IMG/VR virus record: IMGVR_UViG_3300031586_000023
Location: 1 to 22,998 of that record
Direction: 5' to 3' (one strand)
DNA from: a virus
Length of the DNA stretch: 22,998 bases
Positions within the stretch are counted from its first letter, which is position 1. Each line of letters opens with the position of its first letter. Positions 2,515 through 22,583 of the stretch are shown piece by piece. The notes under the pieces were generated by a model. It was given only the letters and a program-made list of their open reading frames with translations, was not told the origin of the DNA and ran no database searches. Position numbers and translations under genes: made by a program.

Positions 2515-2551
2515 CTGTACTGAAAAACCGGATTAGTGAAAGGAGATATTG

Positions 2552-4147
2552 ATGCAATTGTGCAATGTAGAAATTAAACAAATCAGAATTAGCGGGGATA
2601 ATCCCAGAATCATCAACAAAAAAAGCGAGGAGTTCCGCGAGCTGGTAAGCAGCATAAAGTCGCTGGGCGTCAAGGTGCCTATTCATGTCCGCGAAAACCC
2701 GAACGGCAAAAGCGGTTATGAAATGATTGCTGGCGAGAGGCGGCTGCTGGCTGCCGGAGAAGTGGGCCTCAACACGATACCTACCATTAACCACGGCGTG
2801 TTAAGTGACGATACGGCGTTCGAGGTCACGTTCGCCGAGAATTTTGCACGCGAGGACCTGACACCGCTTGAACAGGGCAAGGCCGTTGCGACGTTGATGG
2901 TTAAATACAAAGGCGATGTTAAAGCGGTGGCTTCTAAGATGGGCAAATCAGTTCGATGGGTCATGCAGCGAAAATCAATCCATAACAATTTATCCCAGCT
3001 GTGGAGAAAAGCAATAATTGAGGATCCGGATTTCAAAGATTTTACGGCATCACATCTACAGATGATTGCTGCGATGCCTCGGAACGTTCAGGATGAGTTG
3101 TTTAAGTATTATGATATCAGTTATGGGGAAATACCCACAGTCAAGGAACTTGAAAAAACCATTTCTGATCGCATGCGTCTTTTGACTAAAGCACCATGGA
3201 ATTTAGACTGTTCCAAACTGATAGAAAAAGTGGGTGCCTGCAGTAAGTGTTCTAAGCGCAGCAGCAGCCAGCCGGGCCTGTTCGATGATACAGATGATGC
3301 TGAGACAATTAAGAAAAACGACCGCTGCCTCGACGAGAATTGCTGGAATGCGAAATTAAAAGCACATCTTGAATGGAAAATTAATGAGCTGAAGGCAACA
3401 TATCCCAACCTCATTTATGCGGTCATGCCAAATGACTCCTTTGATTATAGTGAACGCCTGGAACTGCAGGAGAGATTTGGTAACGTGGCAAATGAATGGA
3501 AGGTTTCGAAGGAAGGCGCCAAAGATGCTATCCCTGCACTGATTGTGGCCGGAGCCAACGCTGGGGAATTGCGGTGGGTTATTATCAAGACAACAACCAG
3601 CTCAGGAACAACACGCGAGGTGGGTGCTGATGGCAAGCCGAAACCGAAGCCATTGAGGGAACGGCGGGCCATGCTCGAGAAAAAACGCTGGTTCGTCGTG
3701 ATTCGCAAATTGATGGAAATAATCGGGGAAAGTCCTGTCGAGAAGGTTATCAGTAAAGACCACGTTATCACGGTGATGGCCCTGGTGGTGACATTCGGCA
3801 CAAGCAAAGCTTACGGGGACAAGGGTAATTGGGATGACTTTAAGAAGCTGACAAAATTGCCGGAGGTTTTAACAAAGCTGTGGGAAAGTGTAAGAGGGAC
3901 TATCCGCAACAACCTGTCCTATTGCGGTCCCATTACTCAAACGCCCGACCATCTTATTGGGGATGCCAAGTGCACCGCCCAATTGCTGGGGATCGACATC
4001 GATGCGATGTTCAAAGAGGTGTCCGAGAACGATTATCCGGAACCAAAATCCTGGGCAGGTCTGAAAGCGGATGGCACACCCAAAGCGGCCGGGCCGAAAA
4101 AGAAAAACTCGAAAAAGGCCGGCAAATCAAAGAAAGCCAAATCATAG
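2552..4147 (+). CDS. ParB/Spo0J-type nuclease-domain protein with cysteine cluster
   Basis: A 531-residue protein. Residues 1-100 carry the ParB N-terminal fold: DNPR, then the nucleotide-binding motif GERRLLAA (61-68) and ENFAREDLTPLEQGKA (96-111). A helix-turn-helix follows at about 121-143 (VKAVASKMGKSVRWVMQRK). These features indicate sequence-specific DNA binding, and family members bind CTP. Residues 220-264 hold five cysteines (C220, C230, C233, C259, C264), a probable zinc site absent from chromosomal ParB. The extreme C-terminus is lysine-rich and probably contacts DNA. I chose ATG 2552, six bases after AGGAG, over the TTG just upstream. No ParA is visible, so the role may be regulatory or replicative rather than plasmid-style partition. 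Confidence 0.85.
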   Translation: MQLCNVEIKQIRISGDNPRIINKKSEEFRELVSSIKSLGVKVPIHVRENPNGKSGYEMIAGERRLLAAGEVGLNTIPTINHGVLSDDTAFEVTFAENFAREDLTPLEQGKAVATLMVKYKGDVKAVASKMGKSVRWVMQRKSIHNNLSQLWRKAIIEDPDFKDFTASHLQMIAAMPRNVQDELFKYYDISYGEIPTVKELEKTISDRMRLLTKAPWNLDCSKLIEKVGACSKCSKRSSSQPGLFDDTDDAETIKKNDRCLDENCWNAKLKAHLEWKINELKATYPNLIYAVMPNDSFDYSERLELQERFGNVANEWKVSKEGAKDAIPALIVAGANAGELRWVIIKTTTSSGTTREVGADGKPKPKPLRERRAMLEKKRWFVVIRKLMEIIGESPVEKVISKDHVITVMALVVTFGTSKAYGDKGNWDDFKKLTKLPEVLTKLWESVRGTIRNNLSYCGPITQTPDHLIGDAKCTAQLLGIDIDAMFKEVSENDYPEPKSWAGLKADGTPKAAGPKKKNSKKAGKSKKAKS

Positions 4148-8460: not shown

Positions 8461-8482
8461 GGATTTTGAAAGAGATTATTGG

Positions 8483-8510
8483 CCACAGAGGACAGAGAGA
8501 GTATAGAGAA
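8483..8510 (+). repeat. 7-base-period array (NNACAGA-type)
   Basis: Four consecutive heptads: CCACAGA, GGACAGA, GAGAGTA, TAGAGAA, with a fifth weak heptad filling the space exactly to the GTG at 8518. It is one of at least ten intergenic arrays in this window with the same period but different unit sequence. Confidence 0.55.
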
Positions 8511-8515
8511 AATTA

Positions 8516-9547
8516 GTGTGGGTAATACCAAAGAATTTAGGTGTCTCAGCCTGTGTACGGGATACGCTGGAATCGAGCTGGGGCTTAAACGAGCTATCCC
8601 TGCTCTGCGAACGATCGCTTACGTGGAGATCGAAGCCTTCGCCTGCGCGAACCTGGTTGCGAAGATTGAAGCGAATCTCTTGGATGCAGCACCTGTCTGG
8701 ACGGATATTAAGACCTTCCCTGCACGATATTTTCGCAATCGGGTACACATCATCACTGCCGGTTATCCCTGCCAGCCGTTCAGTTGTGCGGGAAAACGAA
8801 AAGGAACGGACGACCCTCGATACCTTTGGCCGCATATTGAGCGAATCATCAAAACAATTAAGCCTATTTGGTTCTTCGGGGAAAATGTCATGGGACATAT
8901 TAAATACGGCTTCGCTGATGTTTATCGAAGCTTACGAAAAATGGGTTATTCGGTTGAGGCGGGATTATTTAGCGCGGCAGAGTGCGGTGCGCCCCATCTT
9001 AGACGCAGATTATTCTTTCTGGCCCACAATACAAATTGCAGATTCAAAACAATGTCGATGCAACAAGAGGGGCAATCCGCATCTGGGGACAGCAGTTCAA
9101 AACTGGCCGACACCGAAAATACCGACAGGCGGAGCAGAGAAAAGGCAGAGCAGAGCGAAACGAGGAAGCGGCGGAGAAGATTTGGCAGCGGCGATACAGA
9201 ATGCTATTGGCCTGCCGCATTTGGACAGCAACAATATGAGTGGGAAGAGCCCAGGGTTATGGATGACACCCGAGGCAAAAAACGAGCAAGGTTATCAAAT
9301 AGCCAGAGGCAAAAAATATCCAAGACTGGGAACACAGGCGCGATTTGCAACACCCACTTGCCCGGGGAAAAGAGGAACAGCGGGCGGACAAAAAAGAAAC
9401 TTGTTGAAAGATCTAAAATGCCGAACCCGCCAATTAAACCCCGATTGGGTAGAGCAACTAATGGGACTCCCTGTAGGATGGACAGATTGCAATTACTCGG
9501 TAACGGTGTCGTGCCGCAGCAGGCGGAAAAGGCGTTCAGGGAATTGA
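8516..9547 (+). other. second open frame overlapping the methyltransferase, protein-like from 9017 to 9487
   Basis: In the +1 frame relative to the methyltransferase the DNA is open for 343 codons. Its second half (9017-9487) is not random: it has WPT, WPTP, WMTP and FATP motifs at intervals, then LNPDWVEQLMGLPVGWTD, a pattern I know from C-termini of many phage cytosine methyltransferases. The same DNA gives LADT-type motifs in the main frame, since CTGGCCGACACC reads L-A-D-T or, shifted by one, W-P-T-P (9103-9115). No ribosome site specific to this frame is evident. Independent expression, programmed frameshifting or a record of past frame switching are all possible. Confidence 0.4.
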
Positions 9548-9564
9548 TGAGGCTGTTTGAATGA
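8518..9564 (+). CDS. C5 DNA cytosine methyltransferase
   Basis: A 348-residue enzyme that would transfer a methyl group from S-adenosylmethionine to carbon 5 of cytosine. Motif I LSLCTGYAGIELGL (10-23) binds the cofactor; motif IV GYPCQPFS holds catalytic C85; motif VI is GENV (121-124); motif VIII is APHLRRRLFFLA (158-169); motif X is LGNGVVPQQA near the end (327-336). The segment between VIII and X (170-325) is hydrophilic and arginine-rich with LADT at 196-199 and WPAAFG...YEWEEPR, as in phage enzymes of this type. No ATG is available; GTG 8518 is preferred since a heptamer array precedes it, while TTG 8479 would add 13 residues. Likely protects phage DNA from restriction. A second frame is open across the whole gene. 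Confidence 0.9.
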   Translation: MGNTKEFRCLSLCTGYAGIELGLKRAIPALRTIAYVEIEAFACANLVAKIEANLLDAAPVWTDIKTFPARYFRNRVHIITAGYPCQPFSCAGKRKGTDDPRYLWPHIERIIKTIKPIWFFGENVMGHIKYGFADVYRSLRKMGYSVEAGLFSAAECGAPHLRRRLFFLAHNTNCRFKTMSMQQEGQSASGDSSSKLADTENTDRRSREKAEQSETRKRRRRFGSGDTECYWPAAFGQQQYEWEEPRVMDDTRGKKRARLSNSQRQKISKTGNTGAICNTHLPGEKRNSGRTKKKLVERSKMPNPPIKPRLGRATNGTPCRMDRLQLLGNGVVPQQAEKAFRELMRLFE

Positions 9565-9570
9565 AAAGTA

Positions 9571-9617
9571 TTCGATATTCGATGTTCGATGTTCGATACT
9601 TGATGTTCGATATTCGA
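9571..9617 (+). repeat. TTCGATR heptamer array, locus 1
   Basis: Nearly seven consecutive heptads of TTCGATR with one degenerate copy (CTTGATG) begin seven bases after the methyltransferase stop. A 33-codon frame runs through it from an ATG at 9561, but its peptide is simply the translated repeat and I do not treat it as a gene. The same unit recurs at 20772-20810 and 22542-22583. Confidence 0.8.
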
Positions 9618-9620
9618 AAC

Positions 9621-9648
9621 AAAATGCGAAAATCAAAAATCAAAATGC
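9621..9648 (+). repeat. A-rich heptamer array
   Basis: Four heptads, two AAAATGC copies flanking GAAAATC and AAAAATC, directly follow the TTCGATR array and stop six bases before the ATG at 9655. Same period, different unit from its neighbour. Confidence 0.6.
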
Positions 9649-9654
9649 GAGACC

Positions 9655-10194
9655 ATGAGTGAATCGGGAATGAAAACTGATACCGTCATCCATTGTGAGC
9701 GGTGTGGAGCCCGTTGCAAAGTGGATGGGCCGCGAAACCCAGAGGCAAAGATGCTACGTCTGTCTAAAGGGCCCAAAGGTCTGTGCATAAACTGTGCCGT
9801 TCACGATTGGTTGAGAAATACTTATCCGGTTAATATGCTTCTAGCGGAATCCGGACCGAAGATACTGGCCTGTCCGCATATACAAAAGCAATTTACGGAA
9901 ATAATGCAAGTCGGGCTGGCTGAGGCGCAGCCAAATGAAATCAATTGGGACTTAATTATCGAAAATTGGGATTTGCCGTTCCCGCACAAGGTGAAGCCGA
10001 GCGCGATTAATCCATGTACGCAGCGGGTAATGGATGAGATAGCGGCTGGGAATCGCCCGGGCCTCGGTAGCGCGGCCCCGCCAAAGCCTGACCCGCTGGC
10101 TGGTAAGATGACGATTACGAGTTTTGAGGAATTGAACTTGCTGGAGCCGGGTTTGGGTGACGACTTAAAATCAGCACTTGAGGGCAACAGATGA
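9655..10194 (+). CDS. phage protein with N-terminal zinc ribbon
   Basis: A 179-residue protein. The N-terminal 50 residues hold C14, C17 (HCERCG), C21, C44 and C47 (LCINC), a treble-clef or zinc-ribbon-like arrangement of two CxxC knuckles. The rest is mixed, with a proline-rich stretch around 140-150 (SAAPPKPDP) and an acidic C-terminus. No Shine-Dalgarno sequence precedes ATG 9655, which directly follows a heptamer array; a second ATG five codons on has TCGGGA before it and could be the true start. The stop overlaps the next gene by four bases (ATGA). I recognise the general style of small zinc proteins in phage accessory regions, but not a function. Confidence 0.65.
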   Translation: MSESGMKTDTVIHCERCGARCKVDGPRNPEAKMLRLSKGPKGLCINCAVHDWLRNTYPVNMLLAESGPKILACPHIQKQFTEIMQVGLAEAQPNEINWDLIIENWDLPFPHKVKPSAINPCTQRVMDEIAAGNRPGLGSAAPPKPDPLAGKMTITSFEELNLLEPGLGDDLKSALEGNR

Positions 10195-11006: not shown

Positions 11007-11066
11007 TGAGCTGAAACTAGCGGAGTATAACAGATGATGAATCAAAAACAGAAAGGAGTGAAAAAA

Positions 11067-11567
11067 ATGGTTTACAAATGGAAATTTCAGCCGAAAGGCA
11101 ATGTAAGCGCCCAAGTGGCGGGTGAGTGCATCGAGCAGATCGCCAAAAAGAACAGAGGGGCGATAACAGCGAAAGCAATTGTTAAAGAGGCGAAAGCCCA
11201 AAGATCGCCCCTGCACAATCTCTTCGAATGGGACGATACGGTGGCAGCAAAGAATTACCGCGAAGAACAGGCCCGACAAATCCTCGTCCAACTCGTAATC
11301 GTTCAAAAAGGCAAAAAGGATAAAGAACTATTGCGAGTAAGAGCATTTGTTTCGGTGGAAGAAAAGAGAGACATTCATTACACGCCGTTCGAAAGGGCAA
11401 TGTCGAAACCACATTTGAGACAACAACTTCTCCAGCAGGCCTTGTCAGAAATAAATACCTGGCGGGAAAAATATAGAGAATTAGAAGAGCTTTCTGGAAT
11501 TTTTGATGCGATTGCAAAGGTGACGACCAAACAGAAAAAGAGAATATTACGCCGAAAGGCCGGTTAA
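11067..11567 (+). CDS. conserved phage protein of unknown function
   Basis: A 166-residue protein. I chose ATG 11067 because AAAGGAG precedes it by eight bases; an ATG at 11034 would add 11 residues that mostly encode that ribosome site. The sequence features (AQVAGECIEQIA near the start, SPLHNLFEWDDTVAAKNYREEQARQIL in the middle, HLRQQLLQQAL and FDAI at the end) match a widespread phage family I remember from accessory and replication regions of siphoviruses, without known biochemistry. The central LHNLFEWDD segment is the family hallmark. The C-terminus is helical and ends in a basic tail. A large pentamer repeat array follows immediately. Confidence 0.7.
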   Translation: MVYKWKFQPKGNVSAQVAGECIEQIAKKNRGAITAKAIVKEAKAQRSPLHNLFEWDDTVAAKNYREEQARQILVQLVIVQKGKKDKELLRVRAFVSVEEKRDIHYTPFERAMSKPHLRQQLLQQALSEINTWREKYRELEELSGIFDAIAKVTTKQKKRILRRKAG

Positions 11568-11575
11568 AAAAAATG

Positions 11576-11870
11576 ATACGGCGGGGTATGGTGCGGCGCA
11601 GTATGGTGAGTTGGGATATGGTCGGGCAAGGCAGGTAAGGTTTGGCCGGGCAGGTTTCGGTAAGGTTGGACGAGGTTGGATAGCATGGTTCGGCTTGGCA
11701 GGTAAACTTTGGTGGGGCTGGGTGTGTTGAGGCCCGGCATGATATGTTGTGGTGAGGCAGGTGAAGTCAGGCGCGGCGGGGCAGGATGCGGCGGGGCAGG
11801 ATGCGGCGTGGCGGAGCACGGTTTGGTGCGGTACGGTATGGCCCGGCGCGGCAGGCAAAATAAGGCTTGG
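11576..11870 (+). repeat. degenerate GGYNN pentamer array, about 58 units
   Basis: The whole 342-base gap between two phage genes is dominated by a strict 5-base period in which GG or GGT/GGC recurs every five bases while the remaining positions vary. The phase holds over long runs (for example 11701-11760 and 11821-11855) with one slip near 11685. A perfect 15-base tandem duplication (GCGGCGGGGCAGGAT) occurs at 11773-11802. The + strand is strongly G-rich. No gene is credible here: the open minus-strand frame only translates the repeat. Confidence 0.85.
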
Positions 11871-11909
11871 ATTGAATATTAAACCCGAATAAGAGAAAGG
11901 ATAAAAAAA

Positions 11910-12494
11910 ATGACTAAGATGAAAAAGGTAGAGCAGATAATTGAACTGCCAAGGATAGATGTCAAGTTAATGACTTTGAGGCTCGAAGGCGATTCACCTT
12001 TAATTTGTCATGCTTGGAGCGATAAGGCAAAACGAGTGATGTTGGACAAACAAATGAAAAAGGCAAGGCAGATGAAAAAGGCAAAGGACCCGAAGCAGGA
12101 TTTTAAGAATTCACTCTATCCGCACCACGACGGGGGCTATGGATTCCCGGCAGTTGCGTTCAAGGCGGCGGCGGTAAATAGTTGCACATTTTTAGATGGC
12201 GTTACAAAGGTGCTGGCTCGTGGGGCATTTCATGTTGTCGGAGAGCTTGTCAAGATAGAAGGATCCAGGCCCACACCGCGGGAGGACATGGTACGGATAG
12301 CGATGGGGACGGCCGATATTCGGTATCGCGGTGAATTTCGAAAGTGGTCGGTCAGGCTGCAAATACGATATAACGCCAGTGTTATCTCTCCCGAACAGAT
12401 TACCAATTTATTCAATACGGCCGGATTTGCAATAGGCGTGGGCGAATGGAGGCCGCAAAAAGGCGGCTCTTTCGGGATGTTCCATGTAGCATAG
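11910..12494 (+). CDS. conserved phage protein of unknown function
   Basis: A 194-residue protein. Characteristic segments are SPLICHAWSDKAKRVMLDKQMKKA (split over residues 30-55), a basic KAKDPKQDF helix, YGFPAVAFKAAAVNSC, and the C-terminal GFAIGVGEWRPQKGGSFGMF. I recognise this as a protein found in many tailed phages, often near recombination and packaging genes, with no experimentally known role as far as I know. The mixed alpha/beta pattern with a conserved glycine-rich end suggests an RNA- or DNA-binding beta fold, which is speculative. AGAAAGGATAAAAAAA precedes the ATG. It follows the pentamer array and precedes the small terminase. Confidence 0.75.
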   Translation: MTKMKKVEQIIELPRIDVKLMTLRLEGDSPLICHAWSDKAKRVMLDKQMKKARQMKKAKDPKQDFKNSLYPHHDGGYGFPAVAFKAAAVNSCTFLDGVTKVLARGAFHVVGELVKIEGSRPTPREDMVRIAMGTADIRYRGEFRKWSVRLQIRYNASVISPEQITNLFNTAGFAIGVGEWRPQKGGSFGMFHVA

Positions 12495-12531: not shown

Positions 12532-13071
12532 ATGTCTAAGATAACAGAAGTCAGAAGTCAGAAGTCAGAAGTAAAGAAAATCCACAAGCGCAAGCGAAGT
12601 GGGGGTAAAAGCGCTGCCGAGATTGCCGAAGCTGAAATCATCGAGACTCAGGCAGAAGCGGCAAAGTTTATCGGCAAGAGTACGAGGACGGTCCGCAGGT
12701 GGGAACGCGAGGGGATGTTGGTAGCGACCCAAAACGGCCGTAAGGTCTATATCCGCAGCCAGCTCAAACTGTTCTCCGAGCACGAAGGCAAACAGCCGAC
12801 CAAGGCAAGAAGCCGGCGAGATGAGGGTGAAGCGGACTTCAAAGAAATCAGGGCAAAACTGGCGAAATTAGAACTTGAAAAAGAGCTGGGACAGCTCGTC
12901 AATCGCGAGGAGTTCGAAAAAAAGAATATCAAAAAAATTCTCGCCATCAAAAGTGGAATATTCCTGCTGGTCCGCACAATAGTTTCGGCATTACCTGCAG
13001 AGCATAGGCTGCATATAAAAAAATTAGCTGAAAAAGAGGCAAGAACTTTAATCGAGGGTTTTAGTCGGTAA
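12532..13071 (+). CDS. terminase small subunit, Nu1-like
   Basis: A 179-residue protein. Residues about 38-82 form a MerR-like winged helix (TQAEAAKFIGKSTRTVRRWEREG, then a short wing RKVYIRS), as in lambda Nu1, which recognises the packaging site on phage DNA. A coiled-coil region follows (FKEIRAKLAKLELEKELGQLVNREEFEK, 103-130) and a helical C-terminus that would bind the large subunit. The large terminase gene starts 29 bases downstream, supporting the call. The first residues after MSKI are encoded by a TCAGAAG heptamer array, giving a repetitive SEVRSQKSEV-like N-terminus that is probably not functional. No good ribosome site precedes ATG 12532. Confidence 0.8.
   Translation: MSKITEVRSQKSEVKKIHKRKRSGGKSAAEIAEAEIIETQAEAAKFIGKSTRTVRRWEREGMLVATQNGRKVYIRSQLKLFSEHEGKQPTKARSRRDEGEADFKEIRAKLAKLELEKELGQLVNREEFEKKNIKKILAIKSGIFLLVRTIVSALPAEHRLHIKKLAEKEARTLIEGFSR
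12544..12571 (+). repeat. TCAGAAG heptamer array inside the TerS N-terminus
   Basis: Four consecutive heptads, WCAGAAG, start 12 bases after the TerS ATG, so this array is translated. Same period as the other intergenic arrays, with its own unit. Confidence 0.75.
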
Positions 13072-16027: not shown

Positions 16028-16068
16028 ATATATAGACCATAATCAAAAAAAAGGTCTATATGTAGACC
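16028..16068. other. TAGACC inverted and direct repeats with A8 tract
   Basis: ATATAGACC (16030-16038) is reverse-complemented by GGTCTATAT (16053-16061), and GGTCTA/TAGACC (16053-16068) form a second, tighter dyad. An A8 tract lies between the repeats. Read on the minus strand the tighter dyad is a 6-bp hairpin followed by eight T, resembling a weak intrinsic terminator, although no minus-strand gene is visible. It may instead be a protein-binding site. Confidence 0.45.
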
Positions 16069-16132
16069 GCCCACTCCAAAATTCAATTTTTGCCGTTGAC
16101 AATTCTCGGTAATTGGCCGAAATTCCCTATAG

Positions 16133-16464: not shown

Positions 16465-16492
16465 GTTAAAAGTAAAAAGTTAAAAGTAAAAA
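16465..16492 (+). repeat. GTWAAAA heptamer array before the portal gene
   Basis: Four alternating heptads GTTAAAA and GTAAAAA end three bases before the portal ATG at 16496. No ribosome binding site is recognisable in between. Confidence 0.65.
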
Positions 16493-16495
16493 CTA

Positions 16496-18253
16496 ATGAA
16501 GATTTTTGGTTTGACAATAAGAAGAGACAAGAAACAGCGAATGACGGTAAGTAATCTGCCGAGACAAAGGGTTCGCTCATACGATGCGGCCGCAATTAAT
16601 CGACACACTGAAAACCACTGGCTCTATGCAACTGCAAGTGATGCGGATTCTTTAATCCGGCAGGACCTGCCGACACTTAGAAACCGTGCACACTATGAGG
16701 TCCGCAACAATTCGTACGCCGAAGGAATTATCGATACGCTTGTGAATGAGCTTATCGGGACAGGCTCGGACCTGCAATTTCTAAGCGGCGAGGGAGAGGA
16801 CGCCGACAACGAGGTCGAGGAAAAATTCTATCTCTGGATGCAGAAATGCGACATCGAAGGCAGAATGACATTCGGGGACATTCAGCAGCTTACAGGCGCC
16901 CGGCAACAGGCCGAATCCGGAGAAGGATTAATTGTTTTAGTAAATACCAAACCGAAAAGGCAATGGGTACGGGCAAGGCCCGAGCCGACGCTTCGTTTGA
17001 GGGTAATCGAGCCGGAACGGCTGGGGACACCTATGGGTCTTATGCCAACGGGGCAAACATTCAGCGAGAGATTAAGGGATGGTATCGAATATGATGAAGA
17101 TGGCAGACCTGAATTTTATTACATACTCAAACAGCATCCTGGCTCGGCATACAACTTAAGCACATTCGGAGAATACGATAAGGTACCAGTGTCGCATGTA
17201 ATACATCTTTACCGAATAAAAAGGGCGGAACAATCACGCGGGGTGCCCTGGGTGACACCGGCACTGCCGCTGTTTGCGCAGCTTCGCAGGTTCACCCTTG
17301 CAACAATACAGGGGGCCGAAACCGCGGCCAATATATCGGGTGCGCTCGAGACCGAGCCATTAGCAGAACCCGAGGAGATAGATGTTGGAGACGAGGTCGA
17401 GATTCCCCGCAATGCCCTGCTTACACTACCCGCCGGCAGTAAGATGAATCAAATCAAGCCGGAACACCCGGCGACAACTTATGAGATGTTCAAGAACGAA
17501 ATTATCAACGAAATTGCAAGACCTGTTAGTATGCCGTTTAATATCGCCGCAGCAAATTCATCGAGATATAACTATGCATCTGGCAGACTTGACCATCAAA
17601 GCTTTGATAAATTCAAACGTGTCGTGCGTGGATGGATCGAGCAGCATCTTAATAACCGTGTGTTTTTTGCATGGCTGAGGGAGGCGACACTGATACCCGG
17701 CTACTTCAAACACTTCAAAGGCAAAAATATCGAAACAATCATACTTCAGTGGAACTGGCCCGGCAGCGAGCATGTGGACCCGTATAAAGAGGCAAGGGGA
17801 CAGGAAATTCGGCTTAAAAATCTTACAACCAATCTAAAGGCCGAATATGCAGCACAGGGCAAGGACTGGGAGCCGGAAATCAAACAACGAGTCAAAGAGA
17901 TAGAACTCTGCAAAGAGCTGGGAATACTCGATGATGAGAATGTAAAGAAGGTTATGGAGGACATCGCACGGGCAGCCAGGGCGGGAGTGCCTATCGGGGT
18001 ATCGGAGGCCCGGACTTCGATCGGCCTGCCGGAGAAGCCGCCGAACGATAAGCTGCTGCGGTTCAACGACCAGGATGTCCTGCAATGCCATATCGAAAAC
18101 GGGGTCCTTTTGATAAATGAGGTAAGGGCAGTGCTCGGCCTGCCGCCAGTGCCGTGGGGTGACAAGCCTGTCAGAAAAACGGGCGTCAAGCCGGTAACAA
18201 TAAAAGGCGGTGAAAACGAAGAGGAAAAAGAAGATGAAACGGACATCAAATAA
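16496..18253 (+). CDS. portal protein, lambda gpB family
   Basis: A 585-residue portal protein, the dodecameric ring at one head vertex through which DNA passes. Family features include an N-terminal LRNRAHYEVRNNSYAEGII segment, ELIGTGSDLQF, a central stem region (IHLYRIKRAEQSRGVPW), PVSMPFNIAAANSSRYNYASGRLDHQSF and a C-terminal helical crown region. The length is close to lambda gpB. It follows gpW and precedes the protease-capsid gene, matching the lambda-type order. The last 20 bases overlap the next gene. The acidic tail (GGENEEEKEDE) is a common feature. It begins directly after a heptamer array without a visible Shine-Dalgarno sequence. Confidence 0.92.
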   Translation: MKIFGLTIRRDKKQRMTVSNLPRQRVRSYDAAAINRHTENHWLYATASDADSLIRQDLPTLRNRAHYEVRNNSYAEGIIDTLVNELIGTGSDLQFLSGEGEDADNEVEEKFYLWMQKCDIEGRMTFGDIQQLTGARQQAESGEGLIVLVNTKPKRQWVRARPEPTLRLRVIEPERLGTPMGLMPTGQTFSERLRDGIEYDEDGRPEFYYILKQHPGSAYNLSTFGEYDKVPVSHVIHLYRIKRAEQSRGVPWVTPALPLFAQLRRFTLATIQGAETAANISGALETEPLAEPEEIDVGDEVEIPRNALLTLPAGSKMNQIKPEHPATTYEMFKNEIINEIARPVSMPFNIAAANSSRYNYASGRLDHQSFDKFKRVVRGWIEQHLNNRVFFAWLREATLIPGYFKHFKGKNIETIILQWNWPGSEHVDPYKEARGQEIRLKNLTTNLKAEYAAQGKDWEPEIKQRVKEIELCKELGILDDENVKKVMEDIARAARAGVPIGVSEARTSIGLPEKPPNDKLLRFNDQDVLQCHIENGVLLINEVRAVLGLPPVPWGDKPVRKTGVKPVTIKGGENEEEKEDETDIK

Positions 18254-20771
18254 TTTGACTGAAAGACCGTATCCGAATTTCCATAGCTGTCGTCTGGAAG
18301 ATCCGAATAAATATCCAGAAAAAACATACGGAAAATGCGATCAGAAACATAATGGCAAGTGCATCGATGTTGTTTACGGCATAAGGAAAGACGGCAAAAG
18401 CGAGATACAGGCACTTCGATTCGATAAGAAAATCTGGACAGAATCCGATGCACGGACGGTATGCAAGGACAGAGGCGGGACATTCGAAGCGTCAAAGAAA
18501 GAAGAACAAAAACAACAAAGTAGCGAAAAGACCGTCTATCAATGTGAATGTATAGAGTGCGGGTACAAAGAAACAAGCACCACGCATTGTAACGACCTGA
18601 AGTGCCCCAAATGCGGGGGGCGGATGAGAAGGGTTGAAAGACCCGGGCCCGGGCAAAAAGCCGCTCCGGTCAGTTCCGGATCGGCTCCGGTCGAAGGATT
18701 AATACAAAGAAGCGAGCTTACTACACGGACCTACCAGGTCCGGTTCGATACGCTCGATGAAAAGACGCGTTCGATAGAGGCGGTGATCGCCACAGAGAAC
18801 CCGGTCCTTGTTATAGACTGGAACCGATGGGAAATTATCGAGGAAGTTCTGCTGATGAGCGGCTTTCGGGCACCGGCAAACGGGCAAGTTCCCCTGCTCG
18901 ATACCCACGACCGCTCGACGATACAGAAACAACTCGGCAGCACACGCCAGCTTCATACCGAAGGCGATAAACTCATCGGGCGAAATTTCTTCAGCAGCTC
19001 CCCGGAGGCCGAACATGCGTGGACTCTGACAAAAGAGGGACATCTTACGGACAATTCGGCGGGTTATCGCGTAATCAATTCGGTAATAATCCCAAGGGGC
19101 GAACAGGCAACGGTAGAAGGCCGGCCGTTCAAGGCGTCGGCAACGAGAGACCTACGAATATCGACCGAATGGATGCATGGAGAAACCAGCGTCTGCCCGA
19201 TAGGAGCTGATGAAGATGCAAAGAACAGGAATAAACAAAATGTTTCAACAGAAAGGAATAATATTATGGACCCAAAATTCAAAGAATGGCTAATCGCAAG
19301 AGGGGAGAATCCGGAGACCCTCGACGAAAAGAAACGGGCGGAGCTGGAGGCCGAATATAAAGCCGAGCAGCAGCGAAGCGAGAATGAACCGTCTGCAAAG
19401 CCGGATAAAAAAGACGGTCAGCGAACCGACCCGATTATCAACGACCCGCCGACCGATACGAGGGCAATCGCCGAAGAGGCGGTCAGGGCCGAGAGAGACA
19501 GGGTCGAGACAATCAGGACACTCGGCGGAGAGGATGTGCCAGCGGAAGTAATCGAGACCTGCATAAGGGAAGGTAAAACAATCGAGCAGACAAAGAGCGA
19601 TGTCTTAGATGCTGTCCGCAAAAACAGGCCCAAGGTCTCGCCGAACATTGAGGTCACCAGCGAAATCAACCGCGAGGTGCTCGAGGATGCGATGTTGCTC
19701 CGGGCCGGAAGTAATGACGTTATCCTCGAAGATAAGAAAAAAGGCGAACAGCGGGCAGAGGCGGCAAAGAGGTTCCGTGATATGAGCCTGTTAGATGTAT
19801 GCAGGCAGGCCCTTGTTTTCGCAGGACAGGCGATCCCGATGGGACGCGAAGAGGTCATAAGGGCGGCGTTCTCGACGATGGAGCTGCCGATTATACTCGG
19901 CAATATTGCCAAGAAAAGCCTGCTCAAGGGCTATAATAGCGTGCCGGCGACGTGGCGAAAATGGTGCTCGGTGGATTCCGTTTCGGACTTCAAGGAGGTC
20001 ACCGGCGCACGGCTTACCGACACGGGTGAGCTTGAACAGGTAGGCAACAGCGGCGAGGTCAAATACGGAGCTGCAACGGAAGAGTACGAGAAATACAGCG
20101 TTGCAACATATGCCAAGAACTTCGGCGTCACGAGACAGAACATCATAAACGACGACCTTCGCGTATTGACCAAGGTCCCGCAGGCAATGGGCGCCCGGGC
20201 GAGCAGAAAGGCCGGAGACCTTGTCTATGCACACCTTATGCTGAACGGCGCTATGACAGACACCGTAGCATTGTTCCACGCCACACATCTCAATCTCAAT
20301 ACCACCGCTACGCTTGCCAAGGACAAACTGGCCGCCGCCATTGTGGCATTTATGAAACAGGTTGACAAGGACGACCAGCCCATCAACGTCGAGCCGAGAA
20401 TATTACTCGTGCCGCCTGAGCTGAGATTTACCGCATCGGAGCTGGTCAAGAGCGCAACCATCGTGATTACCGGTACCTCTGATGTCGTAAGGCCAACTTA
20501 CAACGCTATAAGCGATATGAATATCGAAGTAGTCACCGAGGCAAGATTGAGCAATGCCACTTATACCGGTTATTCGGCCACAAGCTGGTATATGACAGGA
20601 GACCCGAACATCGTCGATACGATCGTGGTGGCGTTCCTCAACGGCAGGCAGGAGCCGACGCTCGAGCAGTTCAACGCCGGCCCGAACGTGATGGGTATTA
20701 TTTACCGCATATTCACCGACGTCGGCTGCAAGTCGCTCGATTTCCGCGGGATGCAAAAGAACACGACGTAA
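18234..20771 (+). CDS. prohead protease-major capsid protein fusion
   Basis: An 845-residue multidomain protein. Residues 15-90 form a cysteine-bearing phage domain (CRLEDP, then LRFDKKIWTESDARTVCKDRGGTFEA). A zinc ribbon follows (C104, C106, C109, C119, C124, C127). Residues 155-325 are a herpesvirus/HK97-type prohead protease with H225 in LLDTHDRS and S275 in DNSAGYRV as likely catalytic residues. A charged scaffold-like helical region (345-480) leads to a Mu gpT-like major capsid domain (480-845), including LFHATHLNLNT. The protease should cut itself and the scaffold from the capsid protein during assembly. I prefer ATG 18234 (GAGG upstream) over GTG 18210. An internal start with its own ribosome site lies at 19266. 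Confidence 0.85.
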   Translation: MKRTSNNLTERPYPNFHSCRLEDPNKYPEKTYGKCDQKHNGKCIDVVYGIRKDGKSEIQALRFDKKIWTESDARTVCKDRGGTFEASKKEEQKQQSSEKTVYQCECIECGYKETSTTHCNDLKCPKCGGRMRRVERPGPGQKAAPVSSGSAPVEGLIQRSELTTRTYQVRFDTLDEKTRSIEAVIATENPVLVIDWNRWEIIEEVLLMSGFRAPANGQVPLLDTHDRSTIQKQLGSTRQLHTEGDKLIGRNFFSSSPEAEHAWTLTKEGHLTDNSAGYRVINSVIIPRGEQATVEGRPFKASATRDLRISTEWMHGETSVCPIGADEDAKNRNKQNVSTERNNIMDPKFKEWLIARGENPETLDEKKRAELEAEYKAEQQRSENEPSAKPDKKDGQRTDPIINDPPTDTRAIAEEAVRAERDRVETIRTLGGEDVPAEVIETCIREGKTIEQTKSDVLDAVRKNRPKVSPNIEVTSEINREVLEDAMLLRAGSNDVILEDKKKGEQRAEAAKRFRDMSLLDVCRQALVFAGQAIPMGREEVIRAAFSTMELPIILGNIAKKSLLKGYNSVPATWRKWCSVDSVSDFKEVTGARLTDTGELEQVGNSGEVKYGAATEEYEKYSVATYAKNFGVTRQNIINDDLRVLTKVPQAMGARASRKAGDLVYAHLMLNGAMTDTVALFHATHLNLNTTATLAKDKLAAAIVAFMKQVDKDDQPINVEPRILLVPPELRFTASELVKSATIVITGTSDVVRPTYNAISDMNIEVVTEARLSNATYTGYSATSWYMTGDPNIVDTIVVAFLNGRQEPTLEQFNAGPNVMGIIYRIFTDVGCKSLDFRGMQKNTT
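19252..19268 (+). promoter_or_regulatory. internal ribosome binding site and start for scaffold-capsid protein
   Basis: AAAGGA at 19252-19257 lies eight bases before an in-frame ATG at 19266 inside the protease-capsid gene. The residues before it (KNRNKQNVSTERNN) look like translated intergenic DNA, and the product beginning MDPKFKEWLIARGE resembles a natural N-terminus. Initiation here would give a 501-residue scaffold plus capsid protein without protease, analogous in principle to nested genes in lambda (C/Nu3) and Mu (I/Z). Confidence 0.6.
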
Positions 20772-20810
20772 TTCGATAATCGAAACTCGATATTGGATAT
20801 TCGATGTTCG
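20772..20810 (+). repeat. TTCGATR heptamer array, locus 2
   Basis: Five to six degenerate heptads related to TTCGATR (TTCGATA, ATCGAAA, CTCGATA, TTGGATA, TTCGATG) begin one base after the stop of the capsid gene. Same unit as 9571-9617 and 22542-22583. Confidence 0.7.
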
Positions 20811-22541: not shown

Positions 22542-22583
22542 GTCGATATTAGATTTTCGATGTTCGATTTTCGGTGTTCGATG
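22542..22583 (+). repeat. TTCGATR heptamer array, locus 3
   Basis: Six heptads (GTCGATA, TTAGATT, TTCGATG, TTCGATT, TTCGGTG, TTCGATG) start directly after the stop of the head-tail joining gene. Same unit as the arrays at 9571 and 20772. Confidence 0.75.

Follow-up and report, generated by a model that had tools for sequence, protein, structure and literature searches.

A GGYNN pentamer array between two genes of an IMG/VR phage record is very probably a VIPR guide array

The DNA analyzed here (the window, 22,998 bases) makes up one complete virus record of IMG/VR. Its phage genes, including those for the small and large terminase, the portal and the capsid, lie on the plus strand. The host of this phage is probably a planctomycete, as the only relative of its terminase found in any cellular genome is encoded in a Planctomycetota MAG. 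Between two genes at 11034-11567 and 11910-12494, both listed in PHROG with unknown function, a hidden-Markov parse places an array of degenerate GGYNN pentamers on the plus strand at 11580-11874 (Viterbi span 11577-11874). It comprises 54 full five-base units; position 1 is G in 49 of them, position 2 is G in 43, position 3 is a pyrimidine in 52, and positions 4 and 5 are mixed. Identity at lag 5 amounts to 0.493, compared with 0.311 +/- 0.025 (maximum 0.393) among 2000 dinucleotide-shuffled versions of this sequence (z 7.4), so that the five-base period described by the first-pass annotation is confirmed. The G/C asymmetry between the strands (138 G and 46 C on the array strand) and a perfect 15-base tandem copy (11773-11812) were recovered as well. 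What had been taken for one phase slip, however, resolves into four GGCA tetramers, at 11630, 11697, 11756 and 11850, and one ragged spot at about 11674-11686. A scan for promoters and terminators revealed no convincing promoter upstream of the array. Folding of the array RNA gave a z of -2.6, and the Rfam scan of the array returned no match and thus no known ribozyme, such as the hammerhead.

The window contains repeats of other kinds. Degenerate arrays of period 7, of the TATTCGA or TTCGATG type, fill three further intergenic gaps (9569-9617, 20771-20810 and 22543-22583). Other period-7 runs, at 12545-12572 and 16465-16496, are CAGAAGT (four copies, close to where the small terminase gene begins) and AAAAGTA (ahead of the portal gene). 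An inverted repeat, TATATAGACC ... GGTCTATAT, occupies 16028-16070 within the long A-rich gap that precedes the portal gene.

The gene downstream of the array (11910-12494, plus strand) encodes a protein of 194 aa in the phrog_4652 family and is, judged by its sequence, a homologue of SUSP1 Vipr. In a phmmer search, the window protein alone matches the solved structure PDB 36pp, 'SUSP1 Vipr protein', with E 3.5e-7, and the family profile matches the same entry with E 4.2e-10. With the family HMM, ALH47069 of SUSP1 is reached at E 3e-37; this gene is itself flanked by GGYNN arrays. An AlphaFold2 model of the window protein (pLDDT 90.7) resembles Cas7-type RAMPs, Csm3 among them (Foldseek E 5.4e-5; Z 11.7 over 153 residues, 3.4 A), and a Cas7/Csm3-type RAMP fold is predicted accordingly from the model. 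SSAP/RecT proteins take up 5 nt per monomer; a reading of the array along this line was abandoned when homology to RAMP proteins became evident.

The upstream gene (11034-11567, plus strand; probable start at the ATG at 11067) belongs to the phrog_15946 family (PHROG E 1.4e-23) and is a candidate vipr-accessory gene, vap. The family is present in 98 loci with vipr or an array, and it neighbors vipr in most loci fetched with the downstream gene. The AlphaFold2 model of the protein (pLDDT 90.9) yielded weak winged-helix-like DNA-binding matches only, none of them below E 0.1 in the fold search, and by profile there is no homology to the SUSP1 gene adjoining Vipr. Single-sequence searches with phrog_15946, as with the capsid protein, retrieved few relatives. 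Its product presumably assists the system in which vipr takes part.

Gene and array were followed through other phages from both sides. A search of IMG/VR with the downstream protein gave 80 loci, which together with the window and one further locus (L083) form a set of 82; an array of the same kind is carried by 75 of them. Conversely, a scan of IMG/VR for the array alone, with consecutive GGYNN units matched exactly, returned 120 stretches, 90 of which encode a Vipr relative. At the remaining 30 (including L097, L102 and L106), no Vipr lies within the retrieved stretch; these may represent divergent Vipr types or stretches that were cut off. Over all loci, the array is on the vipr strand 214 times and on the opposite strand three times, and over 250 arrays GGY is kept and NN is free to vary. 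The seven loci fetched with the large terminase of the window contain neither the vipr gene nor an array. Since the array travels with vipr in relatives and both are missing from these terminase loci, it belongs to vipr and not to the packaging region. As vipr is accompanied by like arrays in cultured phages and in independent contigs by the dozen, an assembly artefact is very unlikely.

The statement of the first-pass annotation that similar arrays occur in other phages proved correct, and some of them are mistaken for proteins. In Gordonia phage UmaThurman, the gp40 annotation covers a GGCA-punctuated array (L244, 3134-3457), and gp40 is probably no gene. In Pseudomonas phage LESphi2 (L245, 2091-2395), the array adjoins a vipr relative with a different neighbor gene and is interrupted by longer unrelated inserts, a layout of spacers or tails that differs from the window.

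A system built of such parts was first described in April 2026. According to the preprint in question (PMC13142463), VIPR is an RNA-guided DNA-targeting system of phages, CRISPR-like and directed by them against one another, consisting of the RAMP protein Vipr and guide RNAs of 9-16 GGY/NN units, with one base skipped per unit on the DNA. For SUSP1 the preprint reports that the arrays are transcribed, that an RNP forms, that targets are read by the one-base-skip code and that repression follows (PMC13142463). The window shows the characteristic parts: a RAMP-fold Vipr of about 20 kDa (194 aa, with profile and fold matches), YNNGG units adjoining vipr in which GGY is conserved and NN hypervariable, and an accessory vap gene next to vipr, here phrog_15946. 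With homology and fold of Vipr and the GGY/NN repeat matched, the locus qualifies as VIPR in both protein and repeat. We therefore hold, with high confidence, that this is a genuine array and that it supplies the guides of a VIPR system.

Three other explanations of the array were weighed against this assignment. It might be a functionless pentamer microsatellite, decayed or slowly renewed and kept by slippage, and the perfect 15-base tandem copy indeed attests that duplication occurs. Slippage is at odds with the constancy of GGY beside variable NN in 250 arrays, with a strand fixed to that of vipr and with the regular spacing of the GGCA tetramers, and the linkage to one gene family refutes it in practice, so that we regard it as highly improbable. 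The first-pass annotation had likewise judged the units too diverged for a young microsatellite and had considered selection on the spacing; both judgments stand, the variable positions being guide bases, i.e., content rather than decay. It had also offered an R-loop-prone origin, a pausing element or G-rich strand structures. The G-rich strand, the neighborhood of the small terminase gene and the RNA fold score would suit a structural DNA or RNA element of this sort, an R-loop or G-quadruplex serving as origin or in pausing or packaging. Such a role, to which we attach a similarly slight probability, finds no support in the distribution of the array, which follows vipr and not terminase and is lacking in terminase relatives, nor in Rfam; moreover, standard quadruplexes are built from runs of three G, unlike the GG doublets every five bases seen here. 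Finally, a reverse-strand ORF of 103 aa (11547-11858) might be a protein-coding gene, as its frame is open and gene finders call ORFs of this kind, as in UmaThurman. Open frames arise by themselves in a repeat of period 5 in which stop words are rare, though, and here the variable positions hit all codon positions and the GGCA slips shift the frame, which leaves a coding function with next to no probability.

The GGCA tetramer splits the window array into four guides, all on the plus strand according to the Viterbi parse. Guide 1 (11580-11633) has 10 units with the variable pairs GG-AT-GC-GC-AT-GA-GG-AT-CG-AA and closes with GGCA at 11630-11633. Guide 2 (11634-11700, closing GGCA at 11697-11700) has about 12-13 units and is ragged at 11674-11686. 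Guide 3 (11701-11759, closing GGCA at 11756-11759) consists of 11 units, AA-TT-GG-TG-GT-GA-CC-AT-AT-GT-GA, and guide 4 (11760-11853, closing GGCA at 11850-11853) of 18 units, among them the 15-base (three-unit) tandem duplication. We took these lengths to agree with the 9-16 units of VIPR guides. The phase shifts are not random: across loci, the spacing from one GGCA to the next peaks at 9-13 units. Among loci fetched with the gene, GGCA accounts for 386 of 493 units that are four bases long, compared with only 793 of 4657 full units that begin with GGCA. This punctuation is found in 91 of the 98 loci with phrog_15946, in contrast to 8 of 67 loci with vipr but without phrog_15946, a correlation for which shared descent without any direct mechanism could be enough. 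The main text of PMC13142463 does not mention GGCA; its supplement shows 'staggered arrays'.

SUSP1, an Escherichia phage with a type II VIPR system (PDB 36pp), resembles the window in its homologous Vipr, its GGY/NN units, its same-strand arrays adjoining vipr, its phage-borne location and, going by two individual matches, perhaps its target code. It differs in that its vrRNAs are separate and each end in a 3' tail, and in its accessory gene, whereas the window has a continuous array cut by GGCA, marks that are absent in SUSP1, and phrog_15946. A structured 3' tail is described for the characterized VIPR clades in PMC13142463, which also states that array architecture varies. In the window, a tail of the SUSP1 type is absent: the 3' end after the last GGCA (11854-11874, plus strand) has no conserved tail in common with relatives in a listing of array 3' ends, and no Rfam match. 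Absent tail and different accessory gene together exclude the SUSP1 (type II) layout and leave the assignment to VIPR itself unaffected. Closer in layout are the cultured phages Saal, ODay, UmaThurman and Cy-LDV1, all of which carry vipr, phrog_15946 and a GGCA-punctuated array, though with vipr preceding phrog_15946 instead of the order phrog_15946 - array - vipr of the window. The Cas7/Csm3 RAMPs of class 1 CRISPR systems share the predicted fold of the window Vipr. The window nevertheless lacks CRISPR repeats, spacers and other cas genes and has a single small protein with a noncontiguous guide; the tandem-repeat scan revealed no identical CRISPR repeats, and PADLOC matched neither vipr nor vap.

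For one guide of the window, a possible target was identified in a related phage. Read with one base skipped per unit, guide 3 (11701-11755) matches contig G002 in 20 of 22 guide bases, with two mismatches; none of 2000 reorderings of the guide matched as well. G002 has a terminase 66% identical to that of the window and lacks vipr and phrog_15946. The site (11487-11519) lies in frame in a ParB-DNA methyltransferase gene, where it encodes the peptide KFGCVEPIVVN and the skipped base is codon position 3. This gene occupies the place between the counterparts of the flanks of the window cassette (the gene at 9604-10191 and the small terminase gene). Among 397 genomes of the class to which the Planctomycetota MAG belongs, guide 3 fits 10 places with at most three mismatches, compared with one for the reversed pattern, and three of the 10 are ParB-methyltransferase genes. 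Because the ParB motif hit by the guide is conserved, it is uncertain which phage or gene is the actual victim. The window phage itself encodes a ParB-domain protein and a C5-cytosine DNA methylase (2549-4147 and 8479-9564).

Guide 1 fits 19 places in the same 397 genomes with at most two mismatches, which fall in mixed genes and give no clear target. Without its first unit, guide 1 (11580-11629) matches perfectly, 18 of 18, on the glutamine synthetase motif MAAIDGIRN in three of the 397 genomes; two of the three sites were translated and the gene was confirmed. The match may point to a host target or may be coincidental. Scans of IMG/VR for exact targets of guides 1 and 3 and part of guide 4 found none. 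When 362 guides were compared with a small set of mostly unrelated DNA, 4 Mb in all, the one-base skip showed no excess, so that support for the skip code is confined to the guide 3 match, the incoming match described next and the published work. A missing excess is expected if the true targets are absent from the DNA searched, and it lends no support either.

The incoming match concerns the vipr gene of the window. The nearest sister phage, G001 (L002), has most genes in common with the window, at about 44-81% identity for most, and possesses its own vipr and array. Its guide 2 matches 23 of 24 bases at 12039-12074 (plus strand), in frame within the window vipr, and the base skipped is again the third of the codon. 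Four mismatches were the best that 5000 reorderings achieved, and skips of 0, 2 and 3 bases gave 6, 6 and 7 mismatches. The site encodes MLDKQMKKARQM, within the most conserved stretch of the Vipr family (the MLDKQMKKA segment). Among about 80 vipr loci, the window is the best match, with one mismatch, followed by three for the next best. The vipr of G001 itself has 7 of 24 mismatches at the same site, as would be expected if G001 must avoid targeting itself. Both this match and that of guide 3 stop at the GGCA marks, and the adjoining codons on either side depart from the array.

Even with the VIPR locus accepted, both matches might be coincidences produced by conserved motifs, given that guide 3 meets a ParB motif common to many phages and genomes and the sister guide meets the best conserved part of vipr. 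For the same reason, exact victims are uncertain at both sites. The failure of every reordered guide to do as well, the rank of the window among the vipr loci together with the diverged copy in G001, the failure of any skip other than one base, and the position of the skipped base at the codon wobble site in both cases speak against chance, which we consider unlikely, though a good deal less so than the other explanations of the array.

Under the VIPR assignment, the locus at 11034-12494 would constitute a system in the order vap - vrRNA array - vipr. Its G-rich strand, co-directional with the genes, would give rise to the guide RNA, and transcription of the window array into guide RNA is the most likely course in our analysis. 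Vipr subunits would line up on this RNA, one per five-base unit, gripping GGY and presenting NN, and the window copy is presumably transcribed and active. The earlier idea of a protein-binding array thus stands as regards a protein partner, a RAMP filament protein; it has to be amended in that what is bound in the characterized system is RNA transcribed from the array, not the repeat as DNA. The NN pairs, read as xNN with one target base skipped, would recognize double-stranded DNA and repress the gene located there. One array would supply four guides of about 10-18 units with a short GGCA unit between them, GGCA presumably ending one guide and starting the next, and rival phages would be the targets. 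More tentatively, and with somewhat less confidence than an even chance would warrant, we propose that GGCA is the punctuation of a distinct tail-less VIPR architecture: a continuous multi-guide transcript, with a one-base-short unit between guides, would be read or cut with the help of phrog_15946, and sister phages of one host would aim guides at each other's vipr and alter their own copy to escape.

The phage of the window, with its probable planctomycete host, hence joins the newly described VIPR family, and it is confirmed independently, from databases only, that GGYNN arrays and vipr go together. Three testable points are added: the tie of GGCA to one accessory gene, a target in a rival phage, and a VIPR-versus-VIPR target in a pair of sister phages, one of which has altered the site in its own copy. 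The punctuation by GGCA and the target of the sister phage may be the parts that are new to a specialist. For annotators, ORFs called over GGYNN arrays are not genes. Direct tests are possible in cultured phages of mycobacteria and Gordonia that carry these parts.
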